A program made the translations under genes and the position numbers. From the NCBI RefSeq assembly GCF_000327065.1, contig NC_019936.1, positions 3,190,001 to 3,254,000 of the forward strand: a stretch of 64,000 nt of DNA, read 5' to 3'. The notes under the pieces were generated by a model. It made no database searches. It was not told the DNA's origin and worked only from the letters and a program-made list of their open reading frames with translations. The stretch comes from Stutzerimonas stutzeri RCH2. GTDB taxonomy: Bacteria; Pseudomonadota; Gammaproteobacteria; Pseudomonadales; Pseudomonadaceae. Shown one piece after another: positions 25,932 through 30,674 of this stretch (its first letter is position 1; every line of letters begins with the position of its first letter).

Positions 25932-27005
25932 TCAACCCCGTAACCGATGTGCCGCGTCACGCAGCATCTGCTCGGTTGCCGTCCAGCCCAGGCAGCCATC
26001 GGTAATGGACACGCCATAGCGCAACGCAGCGGAAAGCGGCTGACAGCCATCGAAAAGATGACTTTCGAGCATCACACCACGCAGGCTCGCGTCGCCGGCC
26101 AGGCGCTGTGCGATTACCGATTCCAGCACTTCTGGCTGGCGCAAAGGGTTCTTGCCGCTATTGGCATGGCTGCAATCGACCATGATCCGCGGCGCGATGC
26201 CTTGCTTCTCCAGCGCCCGGCGAGCGACAGCGACACTGGCCGCGTCGTAGTTGGGCGCGCCATGTCCGCCACGCAGCACCAGGTGGGTATCCGGATTGCC
26301 GCGCGTCTGCAGCAGCGCCGGATGGCCGAGATCATCGATACCGAAATGCTGATGCGGATGCTCGGCCGACCGCATTGCGTCACAGGCGATGCCCAGACTG
26401 CCGTCGGTGCCGTTCTTGAAGCCCACTGGCAGGTCCAGCCCACTGACCAGCTCGCGATGAATCTGCGATTCACTGGTACGTGCACCAATCGCCGCCCAGC
26501 CGAGCAGGTCGTCGAAGTATCCGGCCGCCAGCGGCTGCAGCAGCTCGGTGGCAATCGGCAGACCAGTCTCCAGAATATCCAGTATCAGCCGCCGCGACAG
26601 GTGCAGCCCTTCGGCCATGTTGCCACTGCCGTCCAGATGCGGGTCGTAGACCAGCCCTTTCCAGCCGACGGTGGTGCGCGGCTTTTCCACATAGGCGCGC
26701 ATCACCAGCAGCAGCTGATCGCTGACTTCGGGCGCGAGCGCGGCCAGGCGCTCGGCGTACTCCAGCGCGGCGACAGGATCGTGCAGGGAACAGGGTCCGA
26801 CGACGACCAGCAGGCGCGGATCGCGACCGTCGAGCACGGTGCGGATGGCGTTGCGGTCGTTGTCGATGCGTGCAGCAAGGGCGTCGCTCAAGGGCAGACG
26901 CTGGCGTAGAACGGCAGGGCTTGGCAGCGGCTGCGCGCTGCGACGGGCGACGCTGGCTTCGGCGGTAGCGGGTTGTTTGGCAAGTACGGTGGCGGATGCA
27001 TTCAT
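25932..27005 (-). CDS. 3-deoxy-7-phosphoheptulonate (DAHP) synthase, class I
   Basis: 357 residues. First step of the shikimate pathway, condensing phosphoenolpyruvate and erythrose 4-phosphate. Recognisable AroF/G/H motifs: VVVGPCSLHDPVAALEYAERL, RAYVEKPRTTVGWKGLVYDPHLDGS, GFKNGTDG, LRGGHGAPNYDA and VDCSHANSGK. Which aromatic amino acid inhibits it cannot be read with confidence, so no symbol is given. It is preceded by two aromatic-rich leader peptides and an intrinsic terminator, indicating attenuation by aromatic amino acid supply. Confidence 0.94.
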   Translation of the reverse strand: MNASATVLAKQPATAEASVARRSAQPLPSPAVLRQRLPLSDALAARIDNDRNAIRTVLDGRDPRLLVVVGPCSLHDPVAALEYAERLAALAPEVSDQLLLVMRAYVEKPRTTVGWKGLVYDPHLDGSGNMAEGLHLSRRLILDILETGLPIATELLQPLAAGYFDDLLGWAAIGARTSESQIHRELVSGLDLPVGFKNGTDGSLGIACDAMRSAEHPHQHFGIDDLGHPALLQTRGNPDTHLVLRGGHGAPNYDAASVAVARRALEKQGIAPRIMVDCSHANSGKNPLRQPEVLESVIAQRLAGDASLRGVMLESHLFDGCQPLSAALRYGVSITDGCLGWTATEQMLRDAAHRLRG

Positions 27006-27049
27006 GATCTGGCGGTTCCTTCTGCCGGCGCGGGTGGTCCGCGGCGGCG

Positions 27050-27145
27050 CTAGTCGGGTGTTCGTTCGCGAGCTGTCTGTTGGGCGTCGAAGCGGCTAAA
27101 TCGCCAGTCGTAGCGGTAATAACGGTCGGTGCGGTAGGTGGTCAT
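27050..27145 (-). CDS. Aromatic-rich leader peptide 2 of the DAHP synthase gene
   Basis: 31 residues with a strong ribosome site (GAGGAA six bases before the ATG). The segment YRTDRYYRYDWRFSRF contains four tyrosines, one tryptophan and two phenylalanines. It ends 44 bases before the DAHP synthase start and lies downstream of the terminator, so it could act on translation or coupling rather than on termination. Interpretation as a regulatory leader is inference. Confidence 0.75.
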   Translation of the reverse strand: MTTYRTDRYYRYDWRFSRFDAQQTARERTPD

Positions 27146-27182
27146 GGCGTGTTCCTCGTTGCGTTGGGCCATCAGGTGGCCG

Positions 27183-27219
27183 AAAAAACAAAACCCCCGG
27201 TCGGGTGGCCGACCGGGGG
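27183..27219 (-). terminator. Intrinsic terminator (attenuator) ahead of the DAHP synthase
   Basis: Perfect 11-bp stem CCCCCGGTCGG/CCGACCGGGGG with a four-base loop. On the minus strand it is followed by a T-rich tract interrupted by one G (TTTTGTTTTTT). It lies 51 bases after the stop of leader peptide 1 and before leader peptide 2, the position expected for a transcription attenuator. Confidence 0.85.
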
Positions 27220-27270
27220 TTCGAAAACTGCTCTGGTGGCGACCCTGCTTGCTAGGGCGCCTGTGGGGTA

Positions 27271-27399
27271 TCAGGCGCGCCTGTGGCTAAACCAATACCC
27301 AAAGTAATAACCAGCGGCGGCAACCTGCTGCCCACGAACGACCACGGTGCGAATGGCACCGGCATCGACAACGTTGAGGGCTACAGGGTTCAGGGACAT
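27271..27399 (-). CDS. Aromatic-rich leader peptide 1 of the DAHP synthase gene
   Basis: 42 residues with GGAG six bases upstream of ATG 27399. The C-terminal segment GYYFGYWFSHRRA packs three tyrosines, two phenylalanines and one tryptophan into seven positions just before the stop. The stop codon lies inside a potential hairpin (GGCGCGCCTG/CAGGCGCC) and is followed by the terminator. This is the classical layout of amino-acid attenuation. I did not recognise the peptide from a named family. Confidence 0.8.
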   Translation of the reverse strand: MSLNPVALNVVDAGAIRTVVVRGQQVAAAGYYFGYWFSHRRA

Positions 27400-27494
27400 G
27401 CTGATCTCCAGAAGATGACCGAACCATACTCCGCCGGGGCTGCGCCTTTCAACCGGCACGGCAAAGAAAGTGACTGATTCGGCTGAGGGCCTGG

Positions 27495-28319
27495 TTACAG
27501 ACTCATCACATCGACGAAGCGCGGCGTGGCACTGTCGTCGATACGCAGGCTCTTGAAATCGAACAGGTTGCGGTCGGCCAGTTGCGAAGGCACCACATTC
27601 TGCAACGCGCGGAACATGATCTCGGTGCGGCCCGGCGACTTGCGCTCCCATTCCTGCAGCATTTCCTTGACCACCTGGCGCTGCAGGTTCTCCTGCGAGC
27701 CACAGAGGTTGCACGGGATGATGGGAAATTCCTTCATCTTCGAGTACGCCTCGATGTCCGCCTCGTTGCAGTAGGCCAGCGGACGAATCACCACGTTGCG
27801 CCCATCGTCGGAGAGCAGCTTGGGCGGCATGGCCTTCAGCGTGCCGCCGTAGAACATGTTGAGGAAGAAGGTCTCCAGAATGTCGTCGCGATGATGCCCG
27901 AGCGCCATCTTGGTCGCGCCGATCTCGTCGGCGAAGGTGTACAGCGTGCCGCGGCGCAGGCGCGAGCACAGCGAGCAGGTGGTCTTGCCTTCCGGGATCT
28001 TCTCCTTCACCACCGAGTAGGTATCTTTCTCGATGATGTGATACTCAACGCCGATGGACTTCAGATACTCGGGCAGCACGTGCTCGGGAAAGCCCGGCTG
28101 CTTCTGGTCCATGTTCACGGCAACGATCTCGAACTTGATCGGCGCGACCTTCTGCAGATAGAGCAGCACGTCGAGCATGGTGTAGCTGTCCTTGCCGCCA
28201 GACAGGCAGACCATGACCTTGTCGCCATCCTCGATCATGTTGAAGTCGGTGACGGCCTCGCCGGCCAGGCGGCGCAGGCGCTTCTGCAGTTTGTTCTGGT
28301 TGACCGAGAGGTTGCCCAT
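27495..28319 (-). CDS. ttcA: tRNA 2-thiocytidine(32) synthetase TtcA
   Basis: 274 residues. Thiolates cytidine 32 in certain tRNAs using ATP and an iron-sulfur cluster. PP-loop ATPase motif [15 protein letters not shown], then the two CxxC pairs that hold the cluster ([10 protein letters not shown] and CNLCGSQ). Single-gene unit. Confidence 0.96.
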
Positions 28320-29185: not shown

Positions 29186-29785
29186 ATGATCAATCACGTT
29201 TGGGGTTTGTTCACTCACCCTGGCCAGGAGTGGACCGAAATCCGCGGCGAGGAAGAAACCGTCAGCCACATGTACCTGACGCACGTGCTGCTGCTCGCGG
29301 CAATCCCGGCCGTGTCGGCTTACATAGGCGCCACGCAGGTGGGCTGGAGCATCGGCGGTGGAGAGCCGGTCAAGCTGACGCAAGCCAGTTGCATGCAGCT
29401 GGCGATACTTTCCTACTTCGCCATGCTGGCTGGCGTTGCTGTGATGGGGGGCTTCATCCACTGGATGGCGCGCACCTACGACGCCAACCCGACACTTACC
29501 CAATGCATCGTCTTCGCCGCTTACACCGCAACTCCACTTTTCATCGGCGGGCTTGCCGGACTCTACCCCCACCTGTGGCTCGGCATGCTGGTCGGTACGG
29601 CGGCGGTCTGCTACACGGCCTACCTGCTTTATGTGGGGCTACCGAAGTTCATGAACATCCCCGAGGACGAGGGATTCATGTTCTCCAGCTCCGTACTTGC
29701 CGTGGGGCTGGTGGTGCTGGTGGCGATCATCGCGCTGTCGGTGATTACCTGGGGCATGGGCATCGGCCCGGTATACGTGCGCTAA
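29186..29785 (+). CDS. Yip1-family membrane protein
   Basis: 199 residues, about five membrane helices. Begins MINHVWGLFTHPGQEWTEIRGEEETVSHMYLTHVLLLAAIPAVSAYIG and ends in a hydrophobic helix. The pattern WGLFTHPGQEW followed by P-x-x-x-x-I-G is characteristic of bacterial Yip1-domain proteins of unknown function. A paralogue follows after a terminator. Confidence 0.85.
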   Translation: MINHVWGLFTHPGQEWTEIRGEEETVSHMYLTHVLLLAAIPAVSAYIGATQVGWSIGGGEPVKLTQASCMQLAILSYFAMLAGVAVMGGFIHWMARTYDANPTLTQCIVFAAYTATPLFIGGLAGLYPHLWLGMLVGTAAVCYTAYLLYVGLPKFMNIPEDEGFMFSSSVLAVGLVVLVAIIALSVITWGMGIGPVYVR

Positions 29786-29972: not shown

Positions 29973-30674
29973 ATGATCCCGCACTTAGTAACTTTGCTCA
30001 CCCGCCCCGATCAGGCGTGGGCCGACATTCGCCGCGACGAAGAGAAGAACAGCTCCAACTACCTTGTCCACTTGCTGCTCTGGGCCCTGTTGCCGGCGAT
30101 CTGCATGTTCATCGGTACACGCTACGTGGGCTGGAGCCTGGTAGAGGACGAGCGAATCTGGCTCGATACCCGCAGTGCCTTTCAGCTCAGCGCGCTGATC
30201 TACATCACCATCATTGTAGGCACCTTCATCATGGGGTTCTTCCTGCGCTGGATGTCGCGAACCTTCGACGCTCGACCGACGTTCAATCAGTGCGTGGGCT
30301 TCGTTGCCTATGTCATCACCCCGTTCTTCCTCGCCGGGCTTGGCGCGCTTTACCCGACACGCTGGATTGCGATCCTCGTGCTGGTAGCCGCCGGCGCCTA
30401 CTCGACCTACCTGCTGTTCGTCGGCCTGCCGAAGTTCATGCGCATCGACAACCGCAACACCTTCCTCTACGGCGCATGCACTTGGGGCGTTGGCTTGCTG
30501 GTATTGGTCAACCTTAAAGTGCCGATGATCCTGTTCTGGATGCTCGCGCTGGACCCGACCTACGAGCGCGATGCTCCCCAGAATCAGAGCTATGGCTTCG
30601 AGGAAAACCGCCCGCAAGAGGAACCGGGCGGCGTGGATAACGAACGTCGTTTCAATGAACGCCCCACCGAGTGA
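29973..30674 (+). CDS. Yip1-family membrane protein (paralogue)
   Basis: 233 residues, about five membrane helices, same N-terminal pattern as the preceding gene (MIPHLVTLLTRPDQAWADIRRDEEKNSSNYLVHLLLWALLPAICMFIGTRYVGWSL) and the shared TYLLFVGLPKFM motif. It differs in a hydrophilic C-terminal tail of about 35 residues. The two genes are tandem duplicates separated by a terminator, so they are probably expressed independently. Confidence 0.85.
   Translation: MIPHLVTLLTRPDQAWADIRRDEEKNSSNYLVHLLLWALLPAICMFIGTRYVGWSLVEDERIWLDTRSAFQLSALIYITIIVGTFIMGFFLRWMSRTFDARPTFNQCVGFVAYVITPFFLAGLGALYPTRWIAILVLVAAGAYSTYLLFVGLPKFMRIDNRNTFLYGACTWGVGLLVLVNLKVPMILFWMLALDPTYERDAPQNQSYGFEENRPQEEPGGVDNERRFNERPTE

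Follow-up and report, generated by a model that had tools for sequence, protein, structure and literature searches.

Two conserved aromatic-rich leader frames ahead of a DAHP synthase gene in Stutzerimonas stutzeri: a probable two-stage sensor of aromatic aminoacyl-tRNA supply

The window, by which is meant the whole stretch of 64,000 nucleotides of Stutzerimonas stutzeri RCH2 DNA analysed here (NC_019936.1, positions 3,190,001 to 3,254,000), carries on its minus strand a DAHP synthase gene together with the whole of a leader that precedes it. From 5' to 3' the order is a weak promoter match, a short frame (peptide 1), strands capable of alternative pairing, an intrinsic terminator, a second short frame (peptide 2), a hairpin, the Shine-Dalgarno (SD) sequence and the AUG of the enzyme. 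A first-pass annotation had described two aromatic-rich frames flanking a terminator before DAHP synthase, and all of these elements were located on this strand, as follows (positions are those of the window).

27495..28319, minus (same strand as the leader): ttcA (tRNA 2-thiocytidine synthetase), the upstream neighbour
27423..27452, minus: possible sigma-70-like promoter, TTGAAA, 18 nt, TATGGT, 23 bases 5' of the peptide 1 ATG
27271..27399, minus: leader peptide 1, an ATG frame of 42 aa, MSLNPVALNVVDAGAIRTVVVRGQQVAAAGYYFGYWFSHRRA, with the end YYFGYWFSHRRA and a TGA stop
27194..27313, minus: Rfam RF00627 'Pseudomonas sRNA P15', 115.2 bits against a cut-off of 70
27286..27300, minus: nearly invariant Gly-Tyr-Trp-Phe-Ser codons GGG TAT TGG TTT AGC
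27300-27295, minus: GGGUAU, able to pair with AUACCC at 27271-27266
27272..27278, minus: strand a, GCGCCUG (end and stop of peptide 1), pairable with strand b, CAGGCGC, at 27263-27257
27255..27261, minus: strand b', GGCGCCC, pairable with strand c
27238..27245, minus: strand c, GGGUCGCC, candidate antiterminator strand, GGGU against ACCC of the terminator 5' arm
27191..27222, minus: intrinsic terminator stem-loop (14 pairs by the scan's count), then TGTTTTTT
27172, minus: in-frame ATG, an alternative start that would give a peptide 2 of 40 aa
27050..27145, minus: leader peptide 2, ATG at 27145, stop at 27050, 31 aa, MTTYRTDRYYRYDWRFSRFDAQQTARERTPD
27102..27109, minus: Trp-codon strand GACUGGCG, complementary to CGCCAG(A)UC of the DAHP synthase ribosome binding site (RBS)
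27097..27106, minus: nucleotide-conserved core TGGCGATTTA of peptide 2, the Trp-Arg-Phe codons and the first Ser base
27058..27064, minus: second conserved patch, CGAACAC, directly 5' of the peptide 2 stop
27024..27049, minus: hairpin between the peptide 2 stop and the DAHP synthase SD
27017..27021, minus: DAHP synthase SD, AAGGA
27006..27014, minus: CGCCAGAUC, the SD-to-AUG stretch, predicted to be masked by GACUGGCG
25932..27005, minus: DAHP synthase gene, type I, AroFGH/PRK12755, 357 aa

The enzyme is well matched by the NCBIfam profiles TIGR00034 (437.9 bits) and NF009395 (514.8 bits), and neither window peptide has a Pfam or NCBIfam match at E up to 10; where databases name the two peptides at all the name is nearly always 'hypothetical protein'. 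Each frame has its ribosome site as had been claimed, GGAG before the ATG of peptide 1 and GAGGA before that of peptide 2. The promoter candidate agrees with the consensus at nine of twelve positions and is weak taken alone, since one such match was found where 0.7 would be expected. Terminator-like sites between 26000 and 29000 number five against 2.0 expected, the other four having only 5-7 pairs, and the stem of the one in the leader starts 48 bases after the peptide 1 stop codon, so that the 51 bases given earlier hold as the distance to the C-run and not to the stem. Elsewhere in the window two Yip1-domain genes (PF04893) lie side by side on the plus strand at 29186-29785 (E 4.3e-47) and 29973-30674 (E 9.8e-41), and are perhaps a tandem duplication.

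The leader is real and widely conserved. DAHP synthase relatives were chosen blind to the leader as the best 80 loci, all close orthologues, with L094 dropped for having no upstream DNA, and at 79 of the 79 that remain the gene is preceded by a peptide 1 relative with a Tyr/Phe/Trp cluster at its end. Peptide 2 is found at 75 of these same 79 (74 by motif and the 75th, L107, by inspection), in genera that include Stutzerimonas, Pseudomonas, Halopseudomonas, Denitrificimonas, Halomonas, Chromohalobacter and Salinicola, among others. A wider scan of 110 entries covers 109 loci, the window and L007 being one locus, and has a peptide 1 relative at all 109; thirty of them were fetched through P15 and so are not independent for peptide 1. 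The ATG, the SD and an open frame with Trp-Arg-Phe are kept for peptide 2 in 102 of the 109, and the peptide 2 frames of L014 and L027 have diverged. Nor do 109 loci amount to 109 independent genomes, because the collections overlap (L004 and L073, and likewise L021 and L038, have identical peptides). The window's own genome has one other close DAHP synthase relative (L141, 51% identity), and in the 500 nt upstream of it no aromatic-rich frame closes. All four leader-blind loci without peptide 2 are Salinicola (L096, L099, L100, L101), and in the three Salinicola loci examined the gene comes straight after a terminator-like hairpin; these loci look like a natural single-stage version in which peptide 1 is kept and the peptide 2 module is absent.

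Both frames appear to be translated ones, as judged from their substitutions. A rough dN/dS-like ratio is 0.50 in frame for peptide 1 (326 gapless pairs) and 0.39 for peptide 2 (785 gapless pairs) against 0.70-1.19 in the two other frames of either peptide, the pairs being compared within equal lengths and, as they share ancestry, not being independent of one another. Conservation among relatives had been named earlier as a check on the two frames, and both do recur in many named genera with coding-type substitutions. In peptide 1 aromatic residues make up 76% of an eight-residue core against 1.6% of what comes before it (103 distinct peptides).

From peptide 1 to the terminator the window leader folds far better than its shuffles (z -4.55), and the minimum-energy fold pairs GCGCCUG at the end of peptide 1 with CAGGCGC. 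Among 41 leaders out of 107 regions that could be brought into one alignment, 98.3% of cells in the terminator are paired and five of its pairs have changed on both sides; the covariation score of the terminator taken with the b:c strands is 0.073 against 0.030 when shuffled, a value that none of 500 shuffles reached. In the same alignment strand b' (GGCGCCC) pairs with c (GGGUCGCC) in 92.0% of cells and the GGGUAU of the Gly-Tyr codons pairs with AUACCC in 94.2%, and neither pairing has any change on both sides. When a ribosome was held at the Trp codon or at the stop in the folding of 91 leaders, pairing between c and the terminator arm went up in 17 and down in 30, which is no consistent antiterminator switch. 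An attenuator is accepted here but no single wiring for it, because the partner strands pair without changes on both sides. That peptide 1 and the terminator make a ribosome-mediated transcription attenuator, as the first-pass annotation had it, is well supported by the conserved aromatic codons, the covarying terminator and the conserved partner strands; the antiterminator, for which strand c is a candidate, is not, given the ribosome-placed folding.

The first half of the leader turns out to be a catalogued RNA, which had been overlooked, as had the nucleotide-level conservation in peptide 2 described below. The RF00627 match is full length (model positions 1-119 of 119) and runs from the aromatic codons of peptide 1 to the terminator. 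Rfam enters this family as type Gene under the name 'Pseudomonas sRNA P15', and the original P15 paper is reportedly Livny 2006. PMC2375449 credits its detection to Livny et al., and PMC2527527 suggests a riboswitch role for it. P15 is best read as a terminated leader, because it begins within the peptide 1 frame and finishes with the DAHP synthase terminator. Genomes of the family match in 113 of 148 cases, 110 of them above the cut-off, which none of 14 control genomes passes. One genome of the same genus, G143, listed as 100% complete, gave no P15 match under strict filters. A Halomonas leader (L103, 1648-1783) looks P15-like and scores 26.6 bits against the cut-off of 70, so the Rfam model may under-report the family.

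Some smaller regularities of codon use can be set beside these. The codon after Trp-Phe in peptide 1 (27291-27286 in the window) begins with A in 106 of 106 distinct frames while the residue itself varies (Ser, Arg, Ile, Thr), the leading A echoing the UUUA of peptide 2. Tyr and Phe codons ending in T outnumber the others by 468 to 103 in peptide 1 (107 distinct frames), the figures for peptide 2 being 230 to 305 (99 frames), and the speed of decoding may differ between the two frames because the T-ending codons dominate in peptide 1 only.

Peptide 2 has most of its aromatic residues before its Trp, where they are 32.4% of residues against 1.4% after Trp-Arg-Phe (92 distinct peptides); among the 1208 residues in front of the Trp are 342 Tyr, 40 Phe and 3 Trp. 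Lineages differ in where the Tyr codons stand and the number stays high, the length ranges from 29 to 55 aa, and the residues other than Trp-Arg-Phe and a core of the long forms (below) are variable. What is kept is kept at the level of nucleotides. The core UGGCGAUUUA reads TGG CGA TTT in 98 of 99 distinct frames with Trp-Arg-Phe, although within the opening 300 codons of the DAHP synthase genes at these loci CGA accounts for 3.0% of the codons for Arg and TTT for 6.0% of those for Phe, and the base that follows is A in all 99, a constancy which is partly selected for because the search motif demanded S, T or N after W..RF (L014 carries TGC there). Of the 99 frames, 89 also have a second patch, CGAAC. 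Its longer form CGAACAC (27064-27058, minus) keeps the CGA and ACA codons even in short-peptide clades with no visible partner strand. The nucleotide-level conservation of the core points to an RNA role beyond sensing. As causes of the conserved patches, cleavage by RNase E, a bound protein or slow decoding of CGA are no more than ideas. UGGCGAUUUASC as the mark of a genome-wide regulon was also considered and is unsupported: there are 43 matches in 29 genomes against 11 for a reversed-pattern control, and of the 30 inspected 13 lie beside DAHP synthase, the remaining 17 having by eye no comparable aromatic-rich short frame.

As to structure in the second half, the window's peptide 2 region folds no better than shuffles (z 0.36), and no Rfam family scores above cut-off over the peptide 2 element in the window, L068 or L103. 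Where the peptide 2 stop lies 37-50 nt from the AUG, the stretch from there to the SD contains a hairpin of 5 pairs or more in 79 of 79 distinct regions, with a mean z of -2.89 over 76 distinct regions; the consensus fold of the aligned hairpin regions came out empty and covariation was thus not seen.

Between SD and AUG, the DAHP synthase mRNA of the window's clade has a stretch, CGCCAG(A)UC, to which the Trp-codon strand GACUGGCG is complementary. When peptide 2 was scanned against the RBS in 39 short-type sequences, the Trp-Arg-Phe windows alone stood out, with a mean z of -2.45 and 72% of the sequences below -1.5, other windows lying between -0.14 and 0.89. The pairing sequence itself differs by locus (CUGGCGAUU with AAUCGCCAG in L012, AUGACUGGCG with CGCCAGUCAU in L041), and some long forms have core-RBS complementarity as well (UGGCGAUUU with AAAUCGCCA in L057, CAUGGCG with CGCCAUG in L050 and L098). 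Over 71 distinct pairs the longest Watson-Crick stem that the core can make with the DAHP synthase RBS averages 4.39 against 3.67 for shuffles, the same core giving 3.52 and 3.61 against the RBSs of peptides 1 and 2. With start sites clustered, all 24 clusters give a combined p of 0.012 and the 11 short ones a p of 0.004, the former being the fairer figure because the short/long split was drawn after the pattern was visible and clusters were labelled by one member; five control windows gave p 0.23-1.0 over the 24 clusters. As a universal feature the core-RBS pairing is unsupported, the 13 long clusters giving p 0.31.

Folding with a placed ribosome, carried out on 26 hand-picked loci with 40 codon shuffles each, predicts that a ribosome on the Trp codon raises the openness of the window's RBS from 0.47 to 0.69, the free state being matched in closure by 4 of the 40 shuffles; at 12 of these 26 loci no more than 2 shuffles in 40 are as closed. 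The effect is not general. L052 is reversed (0.71 free, 0.58 with a ribosome), L003, L068, L063, L089 and L103 change by 0.05 or less, fluorescens-type loci barely change, and L097 goes from 0.54 to 0.68 but has a free state no more closed than its shuffles. In a separate calculation, which carried no shuffle control, mean predicted openness is 0.47 free, 0.57 with the ribosome at the stop and 0.54 with it at Trp. For the window, complementarity and modelling together make translational attenuation the preferred reading, one that seems clade-dependent. The suggestion in the first-pass annotation that peptide 2 forms a second, translational layer is in this way favoured by the complementarity in the window's own clade, support that does not extend to all clades; for the peptide-level coupling offered beside it no evidence came to light, and it is at most a possibility. 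For the second layer a sign opposite to that of a stalling switch, that of translational coupling, is possible. In L072 and L104 a small hairpin (GGGGGU..ACCCCC and GGGCGA..UCGCCC) seems by eye to hold the DAHP synthase SD in its loop, possibly a lineage-specific masking of the start site.

The long forms of peptide 2 carry another arrangement downstream of Trp-Arg-Phe. An alignment of 33 of the 40 distinct long forms has two stems, CCGNUCGG with CCGAYCGG and GCCRCC with GGUGGC, which start five bases after the Ser/Thr codon and are interleaved, and so should be capable of forming an H-type pseudoknot or two mutually exclusive hairpins. Paired cells are 93.1% of the total and nine cells have changed on both sides; the covariation score is 0.102 against 0.061 shuffled with none of 500 shuffles as high, and the three pairs changed on both sides are equalled in 59 of 500 shuffles. 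In 23 of the 33 sequences one inner pair of the first stem is broken, and nowhere in this alignment has a pair of the second stem changed on both sides. Sliding the partners by +3 gives a score of 0.088 and 51.9% paired, and RNAalifold favours a different partner for GGUGGC, for which GGCGAUU is possible. A model of the element finds one match in each of 8 of 244 genomes of the order, all eight beside DAHP synthase, none in the window's own genome (which has the short form) and none in 229 genomes of the class, in a search without a positive control. Between strand 1 of the long-form hairpin and the RBS there is a hint of complementarity (p 0.22, 14 clusters). Short-peptide clades, the window included, lack the long-form structure and keep the frame. 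Programmed frameshifting from peptide 2 into DAHP synthase, which the spacing of core and pseudoknot had suggested, is rejected as the frame offset is not constant modulo 3 (start offsets such as -201, -200, -199, -198, -140).

The reading preferred here, with a rough probability of 0.58, is that the leader ahead of DAHP synthase senses the supply of aromatic aminoacyl-tRNA in two stages, of which stage 1 would govern termination and stage 2, on the best reading, translation of the read-through message. Peptide 1 would be translated while RNA polymerase is still in the leader. With charged Tyr, Phe or Trp tRNA plentiful the ribosome would reach the stop and the terminator would form, leaving P15 as a short RNA, whereas a ribosome slowed at the aromatic codons is predicted to allow an alternative pairing, and the polymerase would then read through. 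Peptide 2 would be present on read-through messages only. In the window's clade GACUGGCG is predicted to pair with the SD-to-AUG stretch, and a ribosome held on the Tyr/Trp codons of peptide 2 would cover GACUGGCG, leave the start site free and so allow more enzyme to be made. What the sequences show directly is the anatomy, its conservation, the coding-type substitutions, the covariation of the terminator and of the long-form hairpin, and the complementarity in the window's clade; the stalling itself, the sign of both switches and the antiterminator actually used are what we infer. In the long-peptide relatives some of this work may fall to the conserved pseudoknot-capable structure just 3' of Trp-Arg-Phe. 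Since UGGCGAUUUA persists where neither RBS pairing nor pseudoknot exists, the core seems to have a role outside this model too. A bolder version, tentative and on the whole doubtful, would have an unrecorded kind of frame-embedded RNA switch, in which the UGGCGAUUUA core 7 nt 5' of an H-type pseudoknot is read by a Tyr/Trp-slowed ribosome (possibly with a bound factor) and gates translation after an upstream transcription attenuator, the pseudoknot having then been swapped for direct pairing of Trp codon and start site in several Pseudomonas lineages.

Peptide 2 could instead be a translational coupler, starvation control being left to stage 1 only and the ribosomes that finish peptide 2 opening or reaching the DAHP synthase start, in which case stalling on peptide 2 would lower expression, because it is the finishing ribosomes that open the start site. 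Five loci (L102, L103, L106, L109, L110) whose peptide 2 stop comes 4-11 nt ahead of the AUG, the hairpin seen in all 79 distinct regions with the stop 37-50 nt upstream, and the rise in mean predicted RBS openness (0.47 to 0.57, no shuffle control) when a ribosome sits at the stop would all suit this, but it leaves unexplained the aromatic content, the conserved core and, in the window's clade, a complementarity confined to the Trp-codon strand, and we regard it as unlikely though to be taken seriously. That the region is mainly an RNA element, be it a protein- or metabolite-binding structure or a processing site, with the frame secondary, is suggested by the conservation of UGGCGAUUUA and CGAACAC to the nucleotide with rare codons, by the pseudoknot-capable conserved structure of the long forms, and by the riboswitch suggested in PMC2527527 for P15, the other half of the leader. 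The retention of ATG, SD and the Trp-Arg-Phe frame in 102 of 109 loci, the coding-type substitutions, an aromatic richness that moves position, and short-peptide clades, the window among them, that have the frame and no structure all argue against this, and make it distinctly unlikely.

Two further accounts concern the products rather than the switch. P15 might act in trans as a small RNA on targets of its own, the DAHP synthase leader being merely its source. Its Rfam entry as a Gene under the name of an sRNA would then be apt, but P15 in the window ends at the terminator of the peptide 1 leader, and the peptide 1 frame precedes DAHP synthase in 79 of 79 leader-blind loci from the best 80, so that this is very improbable, though a trans role in company with the leader role is possible. 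A functional microprotein, for instance one that binds DAHP synthase, is hardly to be expected of peptide 2: it is entered in Pseudomonas records as a 'hypothetical protein', but its sequence is variable except at Trp-Arg-Phe and the long-form core, it may be anything from 29 to 55 aa long, the four Salinicola loci do without it, and the window peptide matches no Pfam or NCBIfam family.

Attenuators of the trpL and pheL type have a short frame with regulatory codons, alternative strands and an intrinsic terminator before a biosynthetic gene. The two-stage leader preferred here is like them in having a short frame with regulatory codons, alternatively pairing strands and such a terminator, and unlike them in its mixed Tyr, Phe and Trp codons, in preceding an enzyme of the common pathway and in its second frame past the terminator. 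Its first stage matches P15 over full length (27313-27194), the differences being that Rfam lists an sRNA gene where here there is the 3' half of a peptide-encoding leader ending in the DAHP synthase terminator, and that peptide 2 and its element fall outside P15.

Of the published leaders that we found, the one nearest to this is the uORFC-13-1 motif ahead of aroF in Acholeplasma, for which the part of PMC8632094 consulted describes a frame with one or more Phe codons and a terminator before the DAHP synthase gene and proposes attenuation; as described there, and compared by that description, it is confined to Acholeplasma and unassigned environmental sequences and has one frame and no second stage. 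ErmB shares with the leader two leader frames and translational attenuation of a downstream gene, but its induction is by drug-induced stalling and concerns a resistance gene and not amino acid supply or a pathway enzyme, with no terminator stage mentioned in the available portion of PMC8274638. The tandem attenuators of Salmonella mgtCBR likewise place two short frames in one leader, both acting, according to the accessible part of PMC3641672, through stem-loops that control transcription, and ahead of something other than an amino acid pathway enzyme. The main text of a premature-terminator survey (PMC2965389) mentions no DAHP, aroF or P15, and in the open-licence literature that was searched we found no description of a leader peptide in P15, no peptide 2 and no two-stage DAHP synthase leader.

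Stage 1 would then be a known type of attenuator under an old RNA name, and what appears new is the second frame with its conserved core. It seems that the leader senses the same shortage at transcription and then at translation, through a mixed first frame and a Tyr-rich second one. The natural variants, with a pseudoknot, with RBS pairing, with a stop beside the start codon, or as in Salinicola without the second stage, offer a way to learn what the second stage adds. DAHP synthase is a usual control point in Pseudomonas strains that overproduce aromatics, and P15, so far a catalogued RNA, gains a concrete and testable role.
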